NCBI GenBank assembly: GCA_902766185.1 | Contig: CACXCQ010000330.1 | Coordinates: 1 to 10,502, forward strand | Source of the DNA: an uncultured Eubacteriales bacterium | GTDB taxonomy: Bacteria; Bacillota; Clostridia; Peptostreptococcales; Anaerovoracaceae | DNA length: 10,502 bases | Reading direction: 5' to 3' | Shown: one piece after another, positions 1,037-10,502 of the stretch | How the letters are laid out: every line of letters starts with the position of its first letter | Numbering within the stretch: the stretch's first letter is position 1 | Position numbers and translations under genes: made by a program | Notes under the pieces: model-generated | The model's input: only the letters and a program-made list of their open reading frames with translations | The model's database searches: none | What the model was told of the DNA's origin: nothing

Positions 1037-1843
1037 ATGGCATTTTTGTTTTCCGGTCTATATGAAGATATTCCGGATATAGATCAGTATTTGGAAAGAA
1101 TCGATTATCACGGCGATCGAAGGCCGACCCTGGATAATTTACAGGAACTCACGAGGAAGAATCTGACGCATATTCCTTATGGCAACCTGGACTTTTATCG
1201 AAATCAGAACTGTCCTTCTCTGGCTATTCCGGACATCTATGAAAAAATCGTCATCCAGCGTGGCTGCGGAGGATGTTTTGAGATCAATCTGCTGTTTTTT
1301 GCTCTCCTGCGGTCACTGGGTTACGACCTGTTCCCCGTAATCGTGAAATGCTTATTCGGCTCTGCCGATCCGGTCGTGCCGACCCATTGCGCTGCCATCG
1401 TCACCATAGATGATATCCGGTATTATGTGGACGTAGGGCTGGGTCTGCCTTCTCCGGCGGGGCCTGTGGTACTCGATGAAGGCTCAGGCTGGCAGCCGGC
1501 AGTTATTTCGCCTCACTATTATTCGTATAAAATGAATCGGGAGGGCGACACCATCCTGTTTGAAGGATGCAAAGGCAGGAAACGGATGACGATGGTGAGC
1601 TTTGTTCCTCAGCCGGTGGAAGCAGTGGATCTGATCCCTTTGAACTACTACGCCTGCATGGCAGAGACAAGTCCCGTGACTCAGGGGATCATCGTCGAGA
1701 TCTTCAGAGAAAACGGATCAGCTTGTTTACGAAAAGATAAGCTTACGATCTGTTCGGATGGTAGGGTCGAAGAAAGAACGTTGGAAACGGATGATGATCT
1801 TAATACGGCCTTACGGGAAGTATTTGGAATAGGAGGAGTGTGA
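1037..1843 (+). CDS. nat: arylamine N-acetyltransferase (NAT)
   Basis: This is a 268-residue protein, the usual length for bacterial NATs (about 260-280). The family transfers an acetyl group from acetyl-CoA to arylamines, hydrazines or related amines in the cytoplasm through a Cys-His-Asp triad. The triad is visible: C80 in RGCGGCFEIN (bacterial consensus RGGYCFE-x-N), H117 in PTHCAAIVTI and D132 in YYVDVGLG. The N-terminal IPYGNLDFY (residues 46-54) matches the conserved IPFENLD segment. One oddity is that the residue before the catalytic Cys, normally aromatic, is Gly, and C77 makes a CGGC pair with C80. The ATG at 1037 has AGGAGG at 1021-1026, ten bases upstream. It is the first gene of the operon, four bases before the next gene. 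The natural substrate is unknown: NATs in bacteria serve in xenobiotic detoxification or, as in rifamycin synthesis, in amide formation. Nothing nearby points to a biosynthetic cluster. Confidence 0.9.
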   Translation: MAFLFSGLYEDIPDIDQYLERIDYHGDRRPTLDNLQELTRKNLTHIPYGNLDFYRNQNCPSLAIPDIYEKIVIQRGCGGCFEINLLFFALLRSLGYDLFPVIVKCLFGSADPVVPTHCAAIVTIDDIRYYVDVGLGLPSPAGPVVLDEGSGWQPAVISPHYYSYKMNREGDTILFEGCKGRKRMTMVSFVPQPVEAVDLIPLNYYACMAETSPVTQGIIVEIFRENGSACLRKDKLTICSDGRVEERTLETDDDLNTALREVFGIGGV

Positions 1844-1847
1844 GAGT

Positions 1848-2132
1848 ATGTCAATCAAGTATGCGATTCTGTTCCTGGTATTGTTTGCGATAGCAAGCAT
1901 GGGAGCCGGGTTCATCAAAGGCGCGATCCAGCAGAGAAAGATCAACAAAGAAGCGGCGAAGAATGCTCCGCCTGTGGAGAAGTCATCGGAAAAGGATGAG
2001 AAGAAACCGGCTGAAAAGAAACCTGTGAAAAAACCAAAAAAGAAGCCGGAAGTCAAGAGACCAAAACGTCTGGTCGATGGATCGGCGGAGAATGCAGTTG
2101 ACGAGCAGAAGAAGCCGGAGGAGCGAAAGTGA
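1848..2132 (+). CDS. small membrane-anchored Lys/Pro-rich protein, unknown function
   Basis: This 94-residue protein has one clear N-terminal membrane segment (about residues 5-25, YAILFLVLFAIASMGAGF). A strongly basic tail follows, in which Lys, Pro and Glu dominate (KKPAEKKPVKKPKKKPEVKRP, about 52-72), ending in an acidic/basic mix. The low-complexity tail is probably unstructured. With few positive residues before the helix and a very basic region after it, the tail most likely faces the cytoplasm. I recognise no family. AGGAGG at 1831-1836 lies 11 bases before the ATG. The gene follows nat by four bases and overlaps yvcK by one base (TGATG), so its translation is probably coupled to both. 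A role as a membrane tether for a cytoplasmic partner, perhaps YvcK, is only an inference from this coupling. Confidence 0.8.
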   Translation: MSIKYAILFLVLFAIASMGAGFIKGAIQQRKINKEAAKNAPPVEKSSEKDEKKPAEKKPVKKPKKKPEVKRPKRLVDGSAENAVDEQKKPEERK

Positions 2133-3073
2133 TGAAAAAGATCGTAATTTTTGGTGGGGGTACCGGACTGTCGTGTATCCTGAATGGATTGAAACTGTTC
2201 CCGGTGGATGTGACAGCCGTCATCGCCGTCAGTGACGATGGCAGTTCGACCGGTGTTCTGCGCGAGGAATTAGATATTCCGGCAGTGGGCGATCTAGGCA
2301 AGGTGCTTCTGGCGATGGCAAATGTGGACGATGATTTCGTCAAGCTTTTGCGGTACCGGTTCGAGCAGGAAGGATCCTTGAAAAACCATCCTGTGCGAAA
2401 TGTTTTGCTGGCAGCGCTGATCGACCTGAAGGGAAACCTGACGGAAGCTTCAAAATATATGAGCCAGCTTTTGCGTGTGAAGGGTACGGTGCTCCCGATC
2501 ACGGAGGATAAGGTGGATCTGATCGGCTACGGAAAGAACGGGGAGTACGTAGGCGAAAGTGAGGTGAGCCGGAATATCGAGCGTATCGATCGGTTGGCAT
2601 ACGATCATCCGGTGGAGATCAATCCGGAGATCCCCGAGAAGATCGCGGAAGCGGACCTGATCATACTGAGTCCGGGCAGCCTTTATACGAGCACGCTGCC
2701 GCATCTGATCATCCCGGATATCCAGCGGGCGCTGGAGCAGGTGGATGCTCCCATAATGTACATCTCGAACCTGGGCACGCAGCCTGGGGAAACAGACGGA
2801 TATACAGTCAGCGATCACATAGCGGTGCTGAATCGGTATCTGGGAAAACGCAGGGTAGACGTGGTCATCGCCAATGAAGGCGATGTGGACCGGAATATCG
2901 CCGGACGTTACCGGGATGAGAACAAGTCGGTAGTGGATCTGGACCGCTATGCGGTCGAGCAGCTGGGCGCGGAGATCATCACCGATGATATCATGAGGAT
3001 CGGTGAGAACGGCTGGATCCGGCACGATGAACTGAAGACCGCGTATCTCGTCTTTTCCTATCTCATGAAGTGA
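2132..3073 (+). CDS. yvcK: YvcK/CofD-like family protein (gluconeogenesis/morphogenesis factor)
   Basis: This is a 313-residue protein, close to Bacillus YvcK (about 317). The fold is the CofD-like Rossmann type. Visible family signatures are GGGTGLS (8-14), the SDDGSSTG loop followed by LREEL (34-46), VGDLGKVLLAMA (52-63), HPVRNVLLAAL (86-96), LSPGSLYTS (179-187) and GETDGYTVSDH (219-229). Family members bind UDP-sugars such as UDP-GlcNAc and are needed for growth on gluconeogenic carbon sources and for cell-shape control. No enzymatic activity is established. The ATG at 2132 is preferred over GTG 2129 because GGAGGAG at 2117-2123 gives an 8-base spacer and the ATG overlaps the upstream stop by one base. 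The gene usually sits in a rapZ(yvcJ)-yvcK-whiA cluster; here neither partner is present and the neighbours are nat and a nucleosidase. GDLGKV replaces the commoner GD[IL]RN[VC], so this may be a divergent or second copy. Confidence 0.88.
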   Translation: MKKIVIFGGGTGLSCILNGLKLFPVDVTAVIAVSDDGSSTGVLREELDIPAVGDLGKVLLAMANVDDDFVKLLRYRFEQEGSLKNHPVRNVLLAALIDLKGNLTEASKYMSQLLRVKGTVLPITEDKVDLIGYGKNGEYVGESEVSRNIERIDRLAYDHPVEINPEIPEKIAEADLIILSPGSLYTSTLPHLIIPDIQRALEQVDAPIMYISNLGTQPGETDGYTVSDHIAVLNRYLGKRRVDVVIANEGDVDRNIAGRYRDENKSVVDLDRYAVEQLGAEIITDDIMRIGENGWIRHDELKTAYLVFSYLMK

Positions 3074-3099
3074 CGAAAAAGCAGAAGTGAGGAGAAGTG

Positions 3100-3891
3100 A
3101 TGAAACTGAGAACAATTACAGCGATCAGCATTCTGATCCTTTTCGCGTGTTTGTCATTTGCCGGATGCGCGCAAAAAGATGCGGAAACCGCAGAGGAAAC
3201 CATTGGCATCATCGGCGCAATGGAAGAAGAAGTGGCGCTTCTGAAGGATGAGGCGGAGATCACTAACACCACGACCAAGGCGGATATGGAGTACTGTGAG
3301 GGCGTGCTCGAAGATAAGAAGGTGGTCATCGTTCAGTGCGGTATGGGCAAGGTAAATGCCGGGATCTGCGCAAGTACGCTGATCGATGATTTCGGCTGCA
3401 CGAAAATCATAAACACCGGCGTTGCCGGATCGCTCGACAATAAACTCGATATCGGCGATATCGTCATATCGACCGATGCTGTTCAGCATGACTTCGATGT
3501 GGAGGCGATCGGTTTCAAGAAGGGGGAAATACCGTATACAGGAAGGTATGCCTTCCCCGCCGATAAGGCAATGCGCAAGGCAGCCCTGGAGGCGGTAAAC
3601 GAAGCCGCTTCCGATATTAAATCCTATGAAGGCAGGATCTGTTCAGGAGATCAATTCATCAGTACAGCCGAGCAAAAGGAGACCATAACGTCCAACTTCG
3701 GCGGGCTGTGCTGTGAGATGGAGGGCGCTGCCATCGCGCAGGTCTGCTACCTGAACGACACGCCTTTTGTCGTGATCCGCGCTATTTCCGACAAATCCGA
3801 CGGGTCGCATAACGTCGAATACGAAACCTTTAAGAAATCGGCCGCAAAGAACGGAGCAAAGATCGTTCAGGCAATGATGCAAAGGCTGTAA
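3100..3891 (+). CDS. mtnN: MTA/SAH nucleosidase with lipoprotein signal peptide (surface-anchored)
   Basis: This is a 263-residue protein. From about residue 35 it is a full MTA/SAH nucleosidase (Pfs/MtnN, E. coli form about 232 residues), which cleaves the N-glycosidic bond of methylthioadenosine, S-adenosylhomocysteine or 5'-deoxyadenosine to release adenine. It shows GIIGAMEEEV (36-45; E44 equals E. coli E12), INTGVAGSL (104-112), the CSGDQFI segment (181-187), CEMEGAAIA (205-213; E208 equals E174) and RAISD (227-231; D231 equals D197), so all catalytic residues are kept. Ahead of it lie MKLR, a hydrophobic run and LSFAGC, which fits the PROSITE lipobox with lipidated C23. The enzyme would sit outside the membrane, which is unusual because MtnN is normally cytoplasmic. 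GAGGAG at 3089-3094 with a 5-base spacer selects the ATG at 3100 over GTG 3097. It is the last gene of the operon, 26 bases after yvcK, and its end is embedded in a 17-bp tandem repeat. Confidence 0.9.
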   Translation: MKLRTITAISILILFACLSFAGCAQKDAETAEETIGIIGAMEEEVALLKDEAEITNTTTKADMEYCEGVLEDKKVVIVQCGMGKVNAGICASTLIDDFGCTKIINTGVAGSLDNKLDIGDIVISTDAVQHDFDVEAIGFKKGEIPYTGRYAFPADKAMRKAALEAVNEAASDIKSYEGRICSGDQFISTAEQKETITSNFGGLCCEMEGAAIAQVCYLNDTPFVVIRAISDKSDGSHNVEYETFKKSAAKNGAKIVQAMMQRL

Positions 3892-3947: not shown

Positions 3948-4010
3948 ATGCAGTACGCCTACTTCGTCACCCTGATCGTTACCGTCGCTGTCTGTTTGCA
4001 GCTCGGATGA
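3948..4010 (+). CDS. possible 20-residue hydrophobic peptide or truncated gene start
   Basis: An AGGAGGG at 3931-3937 stands ten bases before ATG 3948. The frame reads MQYAYFVTLIVTVAVCLQLG and stops with TGA at 4008-4010. The peptide is almost wholly hydrophobic with one Cys and could span a membrane. Most of it is antisense to the last codons of the minus-strand surface protein, whose beta-strand Thr/Val codons naturally read as hydrophobic on the other strand. It may be chance coding behind a leftover ribosome binding site from a lost fifth operon gene. I do not claim that it is expressed. Confidence 0.2.
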   Translation: MQYAYFVTLIVTVAVCLQLG

Positions 4011-5779
4011 TTCTCATCACCGGAGTCCGTCACTCTTACTTTCACTCTATAAGTCCCGCGCTTCAGACCTTTTTTCAGCGTGATCTTGCCGGTGGTTTTA
4101 TTGACCGTGATTTTTGATTTCCCGGTTTTATTGATCTTCTTGTAGGTCAGTTTGCCGGTTTGATTTTTGATTCGATAGGCTTTCTTTGCGGAGATCGCTT
4201 TGCTCTTCTTCAGTTTCTTCGCTTTCGATCTGATCTTGACTGTCCTGCCTTTGGCCGTCATTGCGGATGAGACGGAATCCTTGACTGCAAGTTTCGCCTC
4301 ACTGCCGCTGAGCACCGCCTGATAGTTTTCGTTGTCGCTGACGAAACAGCCAATGCTGTCCTTGGTCATCTTCCCGCCGGAGGTGAACACATCGGGGCGC
4401 TCCATTGTTATACCGATGGAAGCTTCATTGCTCAAGGCTTCTCCGACGTGGATCTTCTTGCCCGCGGGAAGATAGACGTTCTCGGCGGATGTGCCGGCCG
4501 TATTGCCTGTGATCTTTGCCGTTCCGGAGATCGCGATGGTGCTCTCGTCATAACTGCTCACGCCTCCGCGAGCCTCCGATGAGAAGTTCCCGCTGATCTC
4601 TCCGCCGCTCATCGTGAAGGAAGCGTTATGCGCGATAACGACTCCGCCGTCGTCACTCTTATTCGAATCGCTGTGAAGAGCGGCATTGTGTCTGATGGCG
4701 CCGCCCTGCATTTGGAAGACAGCACCATAGCCCAGGAACATCCCCCCGGCAGAGGCGCCCGAAAAATCACGTACTTTGCAAATGTTGCCGATGATCGCAG
4801 CGTCTCCTGACATAACAAACGAGGCTGTGCGATCTGTGCTATTGGTAGACCCGGCATATACGCCGCCGCCCCAGATCGAACGGTTGCCAAAGATGGTCCC
4901 TCCGGTCATGGTCAGGCTGGCGCCAGGTTCAATGTAGATTCCGCCTCCTCCGGGGTTATCTCCCCACGAATCTCCGCCTGTGATGTATCCGCCTTCAAAG
5001 GAGTAGTCTGTCGGGCTGTCTGAAATCGTCGCAGGTTTGCTCTCGTCAGGGAGATTGTAATAATGCGTGGTCTTCTCCGAAGCGCTGTCGATGATGTTCA
5101 GGCCGCAGGGGGACATGATGTAAAAGATACGCCCGCCGTTCTTCTGCGTAAGACTGTGATCATTCAGGTCCAGCGTTCTGGGAATGCTGCTGAAACTCGC
5201 GCTCAACACAGTTTTCGTCCTGGTCAGCTCCTGATCTTTGAGAAGCTTAAGGGTGCTGCCCTCATACCATGATTCGAACGCTGCGTCCAAGGTGCCATAA
5301 AAGTTTGTCTCTTCGAACATGGCAATACTGGCTACAGCTTTATCGGGTGGTTCCACAGACGTGCTCTTTTCCGTAGTAACGAAGACCCAGCAGAGAACAT
5401 GAGTATCGGACGGGGTCATGTGCATATAAAACGTGCTGCCTTCAGGCGCCCACTGATTCTTCTGCAGGGAGACGCCGGGATCTCTCGTCTGGATAATGTT
5501 TCCGTCACCATCGGTCAGGACCATCTTGGAAGGGTGGGATGATCTGAAATTGAAATAGACCATTTTACTGCTCTTCGCCGTATAGGAGAAGATCACTTCC
5601 TGGTTTGGTTCATTGGTGAGAAAATCTTTCTGGTTTTGTTTACCGAGCTCGACGGGGATCACTGCCGGGTCGCTGCCGGGAGCGGGCTCCTCGGCGAAAA
5701 CTGCTGACGCAGATATGACCGACATGATCAGCGCGAATGTGCAGATAAAGAATAGTTTAGCGTATTTCTTCATTTTCAT
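3959..5779 (-). CDS. secreted beta-helix surface protein with Ig-like C-terminal tail
   Basis: This is a 606-residue secreted protein of unknown function. Residues 1-29 are a signal peptide (KMKK, a hydrophobic core, SAVFA before EE). Residues 35-137 look like a beta-sandwich, possibly of the PPC type. Residues 148-215 form a head module (YGTLDAAF, GSTLKLLKD, RTLDLNDHSL) common before clostridial beta-helices. Residues 262-430 hold about five beta-helix coils with the pattern GG-[IVM]-...-MSGG-x-ISGN (TMTGGTIFGN, TMSGGEISGN, AISGTAKITGN). Residues 434-500 are a tail cap (NVYL ... ASIGI ... CFVSD). Residues 512-606 are the Lys/Thr-rich Ig-like tail (KITVNKTTGKITLKKGL, GTYRVKVRVTDSG, ending IRVTK) often found at the end of such proteins. 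There is no LPXTG or SLH motif, so the anchor is unclear. The start has AGGAGGG (5787-5793 on the minus strand) seven bases upstream. It converges on the mtnN operon and diverges from the giant plus-strand gene. Confidence 0.85.
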   Translation of the reverse strand: MKMKKYAKLFFICTFALIMSVISASAVFAEEPAPGSDPAVIPVELGKQNQKDFLTNEPNQEVIFSYTAKSSKMVYFNFRSSHPSKMVLTDGDGNIIQTRDPGVSLQKNQWAPEGSTFYMHMTPSDTHVLCWVFVTTEKSTSVEPPDKAVASIAMFEETNFYGTLDAAFESWYEGSTLKLLKDQELTRTKTVLSASFSSIPRTLDLNDHSLTQKNGGRIFYIMSPCGLNIIDSASEKTTHYYNLPDESKPATISDSPTDYSFEGGYITGGDSWGDNPGGGGIYIEPGASLTMTGGTIFGNRSIWGGGVYAGSTNSTDRTASFVMSGDAAIIGNICKVRDFSGASAGGMFLGYGAVFQMQGGAIRHNAALHSDSNKSDDGGVVIAHNASFTMSGGEISGNFSSEARGGVSSYDESTIAISGTAKITGNTAGTSAENVYLPAGKKIHVGEALSNEASIGITMERPDVFTSGGKMTKDSIGCFVSDNENYQAVLSGSEAKLAVKDSVSSAMTAKGRTVKIRSKAKKLKKSKAISAKKAYRIKNQTGKLTYKKINKTGKSKITVNKTTGKITLKKGLKRGTYRVKVRVTDSGDENHPSCKQTATVTIRVTK

Positions 5780-5954: not shown

Positions 5955-8900
5955 ATGAATCCAAAACGGCATATCGTTAAAATGAATAAATGGCTTGCGA
6001 TAGCAGTGTTTGCGCTGCTCATTTTTGCCATGGGAATCATGCCGTTTACCAGAAGCGGATCTGCTCTTGCCGCATCGGATGCGGCCACTTACACAGTCGA
6101 TTTCGAGTATGAGGGACAGACCATCAGCATCGAAGGGGGGAGCGAGATCCTCGCATCCGAACTTTTTGAGCGTCTCTGTATAGACGCAGATGTCAGCGCG
6201 GCTGACCATGTCGAATTCACCGATCCCCAGCTGATTAGAGTGGAGAGTACCGGCGATGACTGGAAACTCACATCTCTCAAGCCCTTCCGCACCGAAGAGA
6301 GACTCACCGTCACGATGGCAGATAAGGTCATTGAGATCAAGGTGACGGACGCCGATAACAACAATACTTTCCTTCTGCACAGAGAAGAGTACTCGAACGA
6401 GTATTTCAGAACAAGGGTGTATACATCGCGCCCGGGCGGAGCACGATCACAGACCAGCACTGCAGGTACTGTCGTCAACAGTGACGGCACCTATGGCTGG
6501 CAGGATTTCGATACGCTGCTGAACAAGTATTACAGCGACTATTCATATACGGGATCGGACAAGCGCTACTCCGTTTCTTCCGCTCAGGACCCCGCGACCA
6601 GATTAGCGCTCTGTGCAGTGGGATTCCAGGAGGCATGGGTCTTATTAACGCCGGTGCATGCCGCCTGCGGACTGTACCCACAGGCTGATTGGCTTGGACG
6701 CAATGGAAACGGAAGCGCCATCGACTACGATCTTGACATTGAGCTCAACGATAATTCCATCCCAGTCCGGATATATGTAGATGGTACTCTTCAGGAGGAT
6801 ACCATATTCCTCAGTGATGTTGCCGGAGACCATTCAGCTGAGGAAATCGCGAACTCCCTAGGCTATGAAGACTATGCAGTGGAGTCAAGCAAAGTCAATG
6901 GCACCGATGTGAACAAAGTCACAGCCGTTGAACAGACCGGGCAGAGCCTTGCGGGAAACAGGCTGCAGAGAAACAGAACAGCCATAACGGTCGTTGGTGT
7001 TTCCTATCCTTTTGAGGCCTTTGACTATACCTATCCGAAAGCCTACGGATGGACGTACAACAACGGGACTGCCGTGGGAGACAGTCCGTATGTCATCAAC
7101 CTCGAGACGCCCATCGCACGGGTCTCAAACGATGGCGGCAACACGTGGACTTACCACGCGCACCTTATCGACAGCGGCACACAGGGCGGCGGTACAGTGT
7201 ATAAGGGCGCGTTCAATCAAGCCAATTCTCTCAGCGGTGATGTGGTGGTCGAAATGCTGTACGACAGCCATGACCGCTATACGCTGAACAGTGGCTTCAC
7301 GTTTAACAATTCCAGCATCAATAAGCTTACGATCAAGGGCACGGATAACAAGAGCACGCTCGTAAAAGATCAGACGACCTCACCCATGATCACCACATCG
7401 GGAATCGATAAGGTTCAGCTCGATAAAGTCATTTTCGACGGTGACGGCAAGATCACGACAGACAACAATGGCGGCGCTGTGCGGACAAATGCGCAGGAGC
7501 TGACGGTCAGCGACTGTACATTCGATGGCTGCCAAGCGGGCCGTCAGGGCGGCGGAATCTATCACAGCAATACTGATGGTACAGTGAGCATCACGGATTC
7601 AGAGTTTACCGGCTGCAGAGCCAACGGTCCTGATGATGCTAAAGGCGGAGGCGGAGGCGGCCTTTTCACCGATGCGCAGGCCCTGACGGTGACGGACAGC
7701 ACGTTTGAAGGATGTAGCACGGCCGTAAGACAGGGAGCGGGACTCTTCCATAAGCGCGTGAACGGCGCGGCAGCATCCGAGACGACCATAAGGGGCAGCA
7801 GATTTGAAAACTGCACAGCAGTCTGGAGCGGCGGAGGAGTTGAAACCGACGCCTGGAATACGACCATCGAAGATACTGATTTCATCGGATGCAAAGCATC
7901 TAAAGGCGGCGCGATCAACGTCTGGGCGGATGGAGTAAATGAAACCCAGCAAGACACCACGCTTTCCGTTACGGACTGCACGTTTGATACTTGTTCGGGT
8001 ACGGACAACGGGGGAGCCATCCGTTCCACAGCCCTCCATACTATCATCACCGACTCCTCGTTTAACACGTGCACGACAAGTGCGAACGGCGGAGCATTAG
8101 CATGCACGAGCAAGTATACAGAGACCGTGATCACAGACTGCTCGTTCACCGACTGCCATGCGGACAACGGCAACGGAGGAGCATGTTTTACCAACGGAAC
8201 AACCGGAACCGCATCAACGACGATCAGCGAAACATCCCCTGGCAAAACGGTCATGGAGAATTGTTCGGCAGGTAAAGGAGGCGCGGTCTACTCCGGCAAG
8301 CTGACGGTGAGCGGCGGGACCATACGTGGTTGTTCGGCAACGACCAAAGGCGGTGCGATCAGCGGAACGCAGCAGATCACCATGACCGGCGGAACCGTGA
8401 CCGGAAACACGACTGGTGGAAACAGCAGCGCTGCAGTGGATGCAGATACGAAGACTCCCGGACTCATTTTTTCCGGAAACGTGATAGTCGCAAACAACAC
8501 CGGGTCCGGCGGTGAGGCGCGCGACGTATACCTTGGCGTCGATACTGACCGGCACATCCTCATAGATGGTTCCGGTCTTGGGGAGAGCGCCAGCATAGGA
8601 ATCTATGTTGCGGACACGGATTCTGCCTTTGTAAAGCACGGCGAGCCGGGACTTATGTTTGCTTACACCACATTGAACACCACCAGTGTTGCAAATCTCC
8701 ACAAACTGTTCAGCGACAGGCTGGACAACGGTCCGATGTACGGTGCGCCTGCCGTTCCCGGTCAAACCAACTACCAGAAGAGAGTCAGGTGGATCACACC
8801 GCTCTGTAAGCTGACGGACAGCGACGGGAAACTCCTGTACAAAGACGCGGGACACACGGATCCGGCCATTTACTCGACATTGAGTGAAGCTTTTGCGGAC

Positions 8901-10502
8901 TGCAAGATAACGCTGTACAAAGAAACCGGTGATCCTTACTCGTACGATCCCGCGAATGACATCAATGTTGAGATGCTCAAGAACTACGAGCAGCCGCAGA
9001 CGGATCAGGTCACCAGTGACGCGAACCGTGTCATCACCCTGACCACAGCGAATACAGATGCTGCGGATAACCCGGGAGTGGGCGATGTCTATGTCTACAG
9101 TCGGGGAACTGATACGACCATGGATCCTGAGCGCGCAACGATCACGCGGGGCTGGTCCGATAATGCCGACAGCGGAGCAGCCGCCATGTTCCATCTGAAC
9201 AACAGCGGGCTGACCCTGATTACTGAAGATATCATCCTCGATGGCAACGGCGGGACGAATAAAGGCCGCGCGATCTACGTGAAGAACGGATCATTGAGCG
9301 CAAACGGGAATACCACATTCCAGAACTTTAGTATGAACAACGCCGATGGCGGTGCTGTTTATGCGGACAATGCGTTTACATATACCGTTTCCGATACTGG
9401 AAATGTGCTGTTCGATAACTGTACCGCAAGGAATGGCGGAGCGATCGGAACGAAGAATTCACTGACCGTTACCAACGATGATGGCGGAACACTCAGGTTC
9501 AATGCATGCAGTGCCACCGGCTCCGGCAGCAACGGACTCGGCGGAGGCATCTATGGCAACGGCGCGCTGACCATAACCTCAGCCGGGACGGACAAGACAA
9601 GCTTTACCAGCTGCGTGGCCATCTATGGCGGCGGCATCTATCAAAGCGGAACAGGGGATCTGACGCTGACCAACGTCACCTTCGGAGAATCCGGAGAGGC
9701 CGAAGAAGGCTGCTTTGCGGAAATGGAAGGCGGCTCAGTTTATTCGCATGGTAAAAATACCACGATAACAGACTGTGACTTCTTCTATTCCAAAGCAGGT
9801 TCCGGCTTAAACGAAAATAATACTCACGGCGGCGCAGTATTTCATGACGGGACAAATGCTGAGCATCAGATTCTGGGCTGTGTGTTCGACCATTGCAGCG
9901 CGAATACCAGGTCAAATGATATAGGCCATGGCAACGGCGGTGCGGTCTATATCAGCGTAAACGGGATCAAACTGACCATAGACAAGAGTGAATCGCGGCG
10001 TTCTTCCTTTACGAACTGCTATGCCTATCGCTACGGCGGCGCGGTGATCATGGAGAAGAACGGCGGCTGCACACTCAGCATCAGCAATTCCGATTTCGCG
10101 GATTGTTACACTACATTCAGGGATGGCGGCGCGGTATACACAGATTCAAACGTCACCTCGTTTGCAGACTGTACCTTCAAGAGATGCCATTCTGATTCGA
10201 CGAGCGGAGACTATGATGGCGGCGGCGCGATCTATACGAACGGGGATACCGGGAACTTAGCGAATGTTATTATAACGATCAGTGATTGCCAGTTTGAGGA
10301 TTGCCATGTCCAGAGGAACGGCGGCGCGATGCATTTCTACTCCACCGGAACGAATGCGACCCTGAATAACGTTCAGATCAAAGGTCATGTTTCGCTGGAT
10401 ACGGATACCCCAAACGCGGAACTTGGCAGCGGGATATATTCCAGAGGCAACGTCACCATCAAGGACAGCGAAATTACGGGCTGCTCTGCCTCTGTAAAAA
10501 AC
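5955..10502 (+). CDS. giant secreted Pmp-like beta-helix surface protein (3' end outside window)
   Basis: The frame is open from ATG 5955 to the window edge: 1516 codons with no stop. GGAG at 5945-5948 lies six bases upstream. Residues 1-40 are a signal peptide (basic start, LAIAVFALLIFAMGIM core, GSALAA). Residues 45-133 form an N-terminal domain seen in clostridial surface proteins (EILASELFERL, WKLTSLKPF, EIKVTDA). Residues 257-350 look Ig-like. Residues 385-470 are a head module. Residues 485-830 form the first beta-helix, with about 11 coils of the type T-[IV]-x-D-[CS]-x-F-x-x-C-x(n)-GGA-[IVL]. Residues 856-945 are a tail cap, 948-1010 a second head module, and 1088-1516 a second helix of about 11 coils that is still running. 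The pairing of GGA[IV] with FxxC recalls chlamydial Pmp repeats (GGA[ILV] with FxxN). The two helices carry 15 Cys each. It is probably an adhesin or glycan-binding surface protein; no catalytic residues are recognised and the cell anchor would be downstream. Confidence 0.88.
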   Translation, partial: MNPKRHIVKMNKWLAIAVFALLIFAMGIMPFTRSGSALAASDAATYTVDFEYEGQTISIEGGSEILASELFERLCIDADVSAADHVEFTDPQLIRVESTGDDWKLTSLKPFRTEERLTVTMADKVIEIKVTDADNNNTFLLHREEYSNEYFRTRVYTSRPGGARSQTSTAGTVVNSDGTYGWQDFDTLLNKYYSDYSYTGSDKRYSVSSAQDPATRLALCAVGFQEAWVLLTPVHAACGLYPQADWLGRNGNGSAIDYDLDIELNDNSIPVRIYVDGTLQEDTIFLSDVAGDHSAEEIANSLGYEDYAVESSKVNGTDVNKVTAVEQTGQSLAGNRLQRNRTAITVVGVSYPFEAFDYTYPKAYGWTYNNGTAVGDSPYVINLETPIARVSNDGGNTWTYHAHLIDSGTQGGGTVYKGAFNQANSLSGDVVVEMLYDSHDRYTLNSGFTFNNSSINKLTIKGTDNKSTLVKDQTTSPMITTSGIDKVQLDKVIFDGDGKITTDNNGGAVRTNAQELTVSDCTFDGCQAGRQGGGIYHSNTDGTVSITDSEFTGCRANGPDDAKGGGGGGLFTDAQALTVTDSTFEGCSTAVRQGAGLFHKRVNGAAASETTIRGSRFENCTAVWSGGGVETDAWNTTIEDTDFIGCKASKGGAINVWADGVNETQQDTTLSVTDCTFDTCSGTDNGGAIRSTALHTIITDSSFNTCTTSANGGALACTSKYTETVITDCSFTDCHADNGNGGACFTNGTTGTASTTISETSPGKTVMENCSAGKGGAVYSGKLTVSGGTIRGCSATTKGGAISGTQQITMTGGTVTGNTTGGNSSAAVDADTKTPGLIFSGNVIVANNTGSGGEARDVYLGVDTDRHILIDGSGLGESASIGIYVADTDSAFVKHGEPGLMFAYTTLNTTSVANLHKLFSDRLDNGPMYGAPAVPGQTNYQKRVRWITPLCKLTDSDGKLLYKDAGHTDPAIYSTLSEAFADCKITLYKETGDPYSYDPANDINVEMLKNYEQPQTDQVTSDANRVITLTTANTDAADNPGVGDVYVYSRGTDTTMDPERATITRGWSDNADSGAAAMFHLNNSGLTLITEDIILDGNGGTNKGRAIYVKNGSLSANGNTTFQNFSMNNADGGAVYADNAFTYTVSDTGNVLFDNCTARNGGAIGTKNSLTVTNDDGGTLRFNACSATGSGSNGLGGGIYGNGALTITSAGTDKTSFTSCVAIYGGGIYQSGTGDLTLTNVTFGESGEAEEGCFAEMEGGSVYSHGKNTTITDCDFFYSKAGSGLNENNTHGGAVFHDGTNAEHQILGCVFDHCSANTRSNDIGHGNGGAVYISVNGIKLTIDKSESRRSSFTNCYAYRYGGAVIMEKNGGCTLSISNSDFADCYTTFRDGGAVYTDSNVTSFADCTFKRCHSDSTSGDYDGGGAIYTNGDTGNLANVIITISDCQFEDCHVQRNGGAMHFYSTGTNATLNNVQIKGHVSLDTDTPNAELGSGIYSRGNVTIKDSEITGCSASVKN
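7407..8444 (+). repeat. first beta-helix block: FxxC/GGA[IV] coil repeats
   Basis: These are protein-level repeats at residues 485-830 of the giant protein. The coils are 20-35 residues long. Examples are DCTFDGC...GGGIY, DSTFEGC, SRFENC...GGGV, DTDFIGC...GGAI, DCTFDTC...GGAI, DSSFNTC...GGAL and DCSFTDC...GGAC. The last coils drift to GGTIRGC and then GGTVTGN, the Asn form used throughout the minus-strand neighbour. Unequal coil lengths and divergent codons show old duplications; I see no long identical DNA repeats. Each FxxC should stack on the next to form a Cys ladder along one face of the helix. Confidence 0.8.
9216..10502 (+). repeat. second beta-helix block: FxxC/GGA[IV] coil repeats, running out of window
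   Basis: These are protein-level repeats at residues 1088-1516 or beyond. Examples are LFDNC...GGAI, RFNAC...GGGIY, SFTSC...GGGIY, DCDFFYS...GGAVF, GCVFDHC...GGAVY, SFTNC...GGAV, SDFADC...GGAVY, DCTFKRC...GGGAIY, DCQFEDC...GGAM and DSEITGC. The Gly-Gly-Ala codons give a recurring GGCGGCGCG string, for example at 10035, 10125, 10221 and 10320. The final coil is cut by the window edge, so the total coil number is unknown. Confidence 0.8.

Follow-up and report, generated by a model that had tools for sequence, protein, structure and literature searches.

A predicted cysteine ladder at the Pmp asparagine position in a giant beta-helix surface protein of an uncultured Eubacteriales bacterium

The window analyzed here (the whole stretch of 10,502 nucleotides, positions 1–10502 of contig C330 of an uncultured Eubacteriales bacterium of gut type) contains a gene for a giant surface protein in which Cys occupies one repeated coil position, the one at which polymorphic membrane proteins (Pmp) have Asn, as an initial annotation made from the sequence had proposed. 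We consider it fairly probable that in this exported giant a buried, reduced Cys ladder replaces Asn for structural reasons and that the sheet PB1 is the working face. The gene product would be anchored by a membrane tail and would contain two right-handed parallel beta-helices, with an inward Cys at the PB3-T3 junction of each coil, where Pmp-type helices place an inward Asn. In helix 1, ten coils would stack buried, presumably reduced thiols beside stacked Phe, and the ladder would pack and stabilise the corner of the coil, standing in for the Asn ladder. The work of the protein would probably be done by the neighbouring PB1 sheet, on which aromatic and charged residues form a conserved stripe; the likely role would be to bind glycans or mediate adhesion, perhaps combined with catalysis.

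The source genome (G000) is an assembly of 1.94 Mb in 335 contigs, 83% complete and 6% contaminated. The reading frame of the giant gene runs past the contig end (Table 1), loci extracted around it likewise ending at 10502, and we refer to its visible product as P0001. The identity to the full-length relative P0002 was determined over the searched region, residues 440–1516; the C-terminus that is missing from P0001 comprises in P0002 the rest of helix 2, then a hydrophobic segment and finally a basic tail. Matches to the N-terminal module are restricted to residues 41–223 and were found in genomes G000, G003, G004, G011 and G012; the helix region was matched in only two of 60 other genomes searched (G003 and G035). 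The N-terminal part varies among P0003–P0023 in front of the same, constant helix 1, several of these proteins having an acidic linker and other modules upstream, which suggests module shuffling.

Table 1. Coordinates of features in the window.
Feature	Coordinates	Strand	Remarks
Exported 606-aa protein, divergent from the giant gene, Asn-type	3959..5779	-	three GG-x-I-x-x-N matches
Giant surface protein gene	5955..10502	+	1516 aa visible, open at contig end; 97%-identical complete relative P0002 has 1684 aa
Predicted signal peptide, residues 1-40	5955..6074	+	hydrophobic core, then ALA-AS; from sequence inspection
N-terminal module, residues 44-132	6084..6350	+	recurs in other large proteins from the same genus; 33-56% identity
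Beta-helix 1, about residues 440-840	7272..8474	+	
Second, partial Cys column at T2-PB3 junction: C521, C675, C729	7515..8141	+	S or T in other P0001 coils
Helix-1 cysteine ladder: C526, C554, C587, C620, C646, C680, C706, C734, C770, C793	7530..8333	+	one per coil, ten consecutive coils, PB3-T3
Conserved outward stripe, PB1 and turn T1: Y536, N539, F571, F598, R601, E630, D632, K650, N655, R690	7560..8024	+	from alignment; possible ligand or catalytic groove
Helix-1 C-terminal cap, residues 841-946	8475..8792	+	alignment and structure model
Beta-helix 2, residues 1080-1516	9192..10502	+	truncated by contig end; F+3 Cys in most coils

Just ahead of helix 1, at about residues 386–400 of P0001, SNDGGNTW-type letters resemble an Asp-box; the BNR/Asp-box family PF02012 matched three of 16 scanned members of the protein family (best E-value 0.0022). 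The motif [VIP][AS]PT[GNAD] recurs ahead of the last hydrophobic segment and the basic tail (P0002–P0006, rows of alignment A2) and is possibly a candidate sorting signal of a non-LPXTG type. One sortase match is present in the genome (C262:5214-5738).

The 606-aa neighbour of the giant gene has six Cys and a C-terminal cadherin-like domain (PF00028, E-value 5.5e-7). Positions 1037–3891 are occupied by ordinary genes, encoding an arylamine N-acetyltransferase (PF00797), a YvcK/CofD-like protein (TIGR01826) and an MTA/SAH nucleosidase. The last of these has an apparent lipoprotein-type signal, which is unusual for an enzyme that is normally cytoplasmic. The YvcK gene (2129–3073) has relatives in three of 24 other genomes of the genus, with 90% identity in G011 and 71–72% in G013 and G018; no relative was found in the other 21 of the 24 searched. 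In genomes of the same order it is present in 15 of 16, with 36–40% identity. Its scarcity in the genus may be due to loss there or may mean that this contig was wrongly binned.

Motifs were counted in residues 440–1516 and compared with 5000 shuffles. FxxC was found 18 times (shuffled mean 1.17, maximum 6), CxFxxC six times (mean 0.03, maximum 1) and GG[AG][ILV] 18 times (mean 0.67, maximum 5), against four occurrences of FxxN (shuffled mean 2.95), so the initial annotation was correct in stating that the Pmp Asn position is mostly Cys. It had also claimed at least 18 coils with FxxC. The 18 motifs are there, but only 16 of them are separate coil motifs: the motif at 980 falls in the stretch separating the two helices, and those at 1403 and 1408 belong to one coil. 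Three further coils have Cys after Ile or Met rather than Phe (770, 793 and 1510). All six C-x4-C pairs that it listed are present, three per helix, and its figure of 15 Cys per helix was borne out by the count in both repeat regions (15 in residues 440–940 and 15 in 1080–1516, with two in between and three in residues 1–439). Cys content is 0.68% in residues 1–439 vs. 3.0–3.4% in both helices. Of 12 loci examined, nine yielded an ORF piece that shows the N-terminal module pattern, two of these pieces (L010 and L014) being on one contig. Their Cys content is 0.11–1.17%, and the piece with 1.17% also has FxxC repeats; set beside the Cys content of the helices, these values fit the remark that exported proteins avoid Cys.

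The structure model of helix 1 is a right-handed beta-helix with a pLDDT of 94. DSSP analysis of the model gives one PB1-PB2-PB3 set per coil, with the Cys of FxxC (position F+3) directly after PB3; the three parallel sheets in each coil are those that characterise a pectin-lyase-like fold. The model and its structural neighbours thus agree with the Pmp-like right-handed beta-helix that had been predicted, and also with a column of thiols spaced one coil apart, as far as the register can be read from DSSP. As in other cysteine ladders, Cys holds the same coil position in succession, here over ten coils, and from the register we infer that these residues stack inward. The F+3 positions look like a buried ladder in the model, without surface thiols; since the coil register reads inward, into the core, the placing of thiols at the surface in the initial annotation was rejected.

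Homologue searches retrieved 64 proteins at an E-value of 0.001 or better and 149 with a 12-row alignment, of which 120 were listed. Relatives were found in RUG576, an uncultured Clostridiales bacterium whose RUG label we take to denote a rumen genome, and include P0078, an incomplete protein labelled 'Mogibacterium sp.' that matches 29% of the query at 51%. The bacteria carrying these proteins are presumably anaerobic. RUG576 has at least two helix-1 family members (L016 1081-4197 and L017 7920-10580), each all-Cys over 11 scored ladder sites.

Nine of the 15 helix-1 Cys columns (521, 526, 554, 620, 646, 675, 680, 706 and 734) contain Cys in all 23 rows of the alignment. Cys is present in 22 rows at C729 (one Ser) and at C793 (one gap), in 21 at C587 (Ile in two), in 20 at C717 (Tyr in three), in 19 at C770 (three gaps and one Gly) and in six at C744; N818 is Cys in seven rows. 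F+3 Cys is substituted only by Ile, in two rows, and by Gly, in one row at 770, and the Ile at C587 is a swap of the buried type. When retention was averaged by residue type over 21 homologues, with P0002 dropped, Cys was the best-kept residue of helix 1 (0.92 over 15 columns), level with Phe (0.91), and Gly followed with 0.79. The corresponding values for helix 2, from only four homologues beyond P0002, were 0.90 for Cys (13 columns; the other two of the 15, with too few residues, were excluded from the mean), 0.74 for Gly and 0.67 for Phe.

From a wider alignment of 36 relatives, with about 42–64% identity, we kept the 32 close ones and nine coils; this set omits P0024, P0028 and P0077 as well as P0002. 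Mean retention in it was 0.99 at F+3, the most conserved of 20 coil positions tabulated, 0.83 at F and 0.71 at F-2, and C521, C675 and C729 were retained at 0.97–1.00. At outward positions, retention was 0.78 in PB1, 0.33–0.54 in PB2 and 0.20–0.21 in PB3. Variable Cys positions among homologues had been named beforehand as the outcome that would speak against a meaningful column, and what we see is their conservation. The near-invariance of Cys exceeds the needs of simple packing and, to that extent, counts against reading the ladder as structural.

Across related proteins the ladder site is mainly Cys or Asn. In an open residue count, one of the two is the most frequent residue, alone or jointly, in 62 of 65 proteins, the exceptions being P0034, P0037 and P0045. 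The block and coil-type counts that follow were made with a ladder finder that scores only C and N and therefore overstates the purity of the site. Out of 163 proteins, 78 with fewer than eight C/N ladder sites were left out of the histogram; among the 85 kept, the Cys fraction was bimodal, with 26 proteins below 0.1 and 24 at 0.9 or more. The two residues occur in blocks in the 23 mixed proteins: 148 runs were counted vs. 203.8 ± 8.4 after shuffling (0 of 2000 shuffles as low), a result that depends partly on internal duplication and on relatedness between the proteins. Dissimilar adjacent coils were of the same type in 187 of 286 cases vs. 1578 of 2829 distant pairs, a modest excess, and agreement rose with the similarity of the adjacent coils (to 92 of 116 and 32 of 36); it follows that internal duplication accounts for part of the blocks. 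The 15-mers of 561 C-type coils resemble those of 821 N-type coils except at the ladder residue. Taken at the level of sequence, these data suggest that a Pmp-type Asn ladder may give way to a Cys ladder, one block of coils at a time.

FxxC-rich Pmp-like helices are also seen in P0048, P0049 and P0042, labelled Streblomastix (31 FxxC and 4 FxxN), Blattamonas (16 and 3) and Methanoregula (13 and 2), respectively, and the Cys state thus extends beyond this clade. As to spread via mobile elements, tblastn searches of plasmid and phage collections at an E-value of 1e-5 gave no matches. One could go further and suppose that the Pmp ladder has two states, each coil block being Asn or Cys, that the Cys state defines a broad family of surface giants with a thiol core in bacteria that lack enzymes for oxidative folding, and that an oxidant unfolds or cross-links the helix, switching adhesion off; we regard this as decidedly unlikely.

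Disulphide stapling, metal binding and a redox role had been suggested for the Cys pattern in the initial annotation, and none of the three is supported by our data. Disulphides between the Cys at F-2 and F+3 of one coil, or between F+3 Cys of neighbouring coils, could stiffen the helix, and the six C-x4-C pairs, the high retention of C521, C675 and C729 and the presence of DsbA in the genus (matches in 5 of 49 genomes, four of them above the cut-off) would agree with this. However, F-2 is a residue other than Cys in 71% of the 561 C-type coils (Cys in 29%, against 13% of the 821 N-type coils), and S, T and C interchange at F-2 (positions 549 and 615) while F+3 remains Cys. Moreover, the Ile in two rows at C587 and the gaps in three rows at C770, which leave nine F+3 Cys, would orphan their partners. 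This makes a fixed set of disulphides unlikely, and an obligate C-x4-C disulphide was rejected on these grounds. DsbA, VKOR and DsbD_TM were not matched in the genome, against 8, 3 and 10 of 14 control genomes, respectively. With the genome 83% complete this absence is no proof, and it is a poor ground in the case of DsbA, which may have been missed, since G013 and G018, two of the three same-genus genomes that share the YvcK relative of this contig, both have it. Working DsbA and VKOR exist in some Clostridia, according to the available part of PMC12453122. Overall, we judge disulphide stapling to be quite unlikely.

Ten near-invariant thiols, unbroken and about one coil apart, are chemically unusual, and one may imagine a column that binds soft metals, senses oxidants or serves as a thiol wire at the cell surface. 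Yet the positions read as buried, Ile (as at C587) and Asn are tolerated at single steps, nothing seen points to a metal, and a structural Cys ladder has been described for FdlA; for a redox role, the genome also has no DsbA, VKOR or DsbD match. A metal- or redox-active column is thus very unlikely in our view. A further reading is neutral drift, with Cys as a small hydrophobic filler that an oxygen-free cell tolerates and a ladder that is unselected; Asn-type sites are otherwise the same, and none of the three thiol-oxidase families was found in the genome. That F+3 leads all tabulated positions in conservation at about 42–64% identity, and that its Cys is replaced in so few of the 23 rows, makes drift highly improbable.

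The best-kept outward face of helix 1 is PB1 with T1. In the close set of 32 relatives, N539, R601, E630, D632, K650, N655 and R690 of the stripe have a retention of 1.00, and Y536, F571 and F598 of 0.78–0.97. In the wider alignment, with P0002 again left out, each of these seven is kept in 32 of 35 rows, N655 in 32 of 32 with three gaps; P0024, P0028 and P0077, which are more distant relatives, have lost the stripe. Since it is like the grooves of beta-helix carbohydrate-active proteins, glycan binding or adhesion is likely, and the stripe, on which the initial annotation was silent, is a better candidate for function than the Cys ladder, perhaps in binding glycans. A groove on a long surface protein would, in our reading, be glycan-binding or glycan-cutting.

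Beta-helix lyases and epimerases other than FdlA typically use PB1, and alginate epimerases and PL6 lyases are among the top structural neighbours of helix 1. The FdlA groove is formed by PB1 and T3 (PMC9410043, available part). These neighbours, together with the conservation of R601, E630, D632, K650, N655 and R690 on PB1, T1 and the T3 end of adjacent coils, would suit a carbohydrate-active enzyme bound at the surface, be it a lyase, an epimerase or a hydrolase, with a catalytic PB1 stripe and with the Cys ladder as the floor of the groove, as in FdlA. P0001 has no match to any Pfam or NCBIfam family at an E-value of 1, polysaccharide lyase and epimerase families included, and none of the latter was matched in Pfam by 16 family members at 0.1. 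We consider such an enzyme unlikely.

The reading that we favour, a structural thiol ladder beside a PB1 working face, suggests that some thirty Cys can be accommodated in a surface protein of Gram-positive type. Two questions become testable, whether beta-solenoids gain stability from long stacks of buried thiols and whether it is life without oxygen that allows such stacks, and the PB1 stripe offers a concrete site at which to seek the ligand of a large uncharacterised family.

P0001 resembles Pmp in the alternation of GGA[ILV] and Fxx[N/C], which marks T3-PB1 and PB3-T3, in the long right-handed beta-helix and in the surface location. In the available parts of the sources, Pmp FxxN is placed at PB3-T3 with conserved side chains inward (PMC11166332), and FxxN is given for trichomonad Pmp repeats (PMC6701047). 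In contrast, the P0001 family has Cys at the ladder site, and in P0002–P0006 the C-terminus has one hydrophobic segment followed by a basic tail, in Gram-positive style, instead of an autotransporter barrel; a scan of 16 members matched seven families, none of them an autotransporter or middle-domain family. In HMM searches, the Pmp family PF02415 was unmatched in P0001 at an E-value of 1 and in all 16 members at 0.1, and PF13229 (Beta_helix) was matched by seven of the 16 at 0.1 (best 1.2e-27), though not by P0001 at 1. With no PF02415 match, FxxC in place of FxxN and no barrel, the protein does not belong to Pmp.

FdlA, a Flavobacterium fucoidan lyase, is likewise a right-handed beta-helix and has an interior cysteine ladder, which lies beneath its groove and is read by the authors as stabilising (PMC9410043). 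According to the part of that source available, the FdlA ladder has five Cys at the T2-PB3 junction, whereas the main ladder of P0001 is located at PB3-T3 over ten coils and its T2-PB3 column is partial. A PDB sequence search with P0001 returned three weak matches, all with E-values of 0.11 or more, and no sequence match to FdlA. A cysteine ladder in InlJ was reportedly described by Bublitz et al. in 2008. InlJ of Listeria monocytogenes is an LPXTG surface adhesin whose repeats have such a ladder (PMC7291126, available part); it is like P0001 in being of Gram-positive surface type and in its repeats with a cysteine ladder, which in P0001 is predicted, and differs in having leucine-rich repeats and an LPXTG anchor, where the P0001 family has a beta-helix and P0002–P0006 lack LPXTG before the C-terminal hydrophobic stretch and carry [VP][AS]PT[GNA]. 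PfbA of Streptococcus pneumoniae, a beta-helix adhesin, has 15% identity.

Cysteine ladders have been treated in earlier literature (PMC9410043, PMC3196904, PMC9525666 and PMC7291126, as far as these sources were available). Among the literature matches listed, there was no description of FxxC Pmp-like repeats and no precedent for a Cys ladder at PB3-T3, for one of such length in a giant Gram-positive-type family or for blockwise exchange with Asn. Since ladders of this kind are already known from InlJ and FdlA, and the novelty lies in site, length and exchange with Asn, the protein is a clear variant of known architectures.
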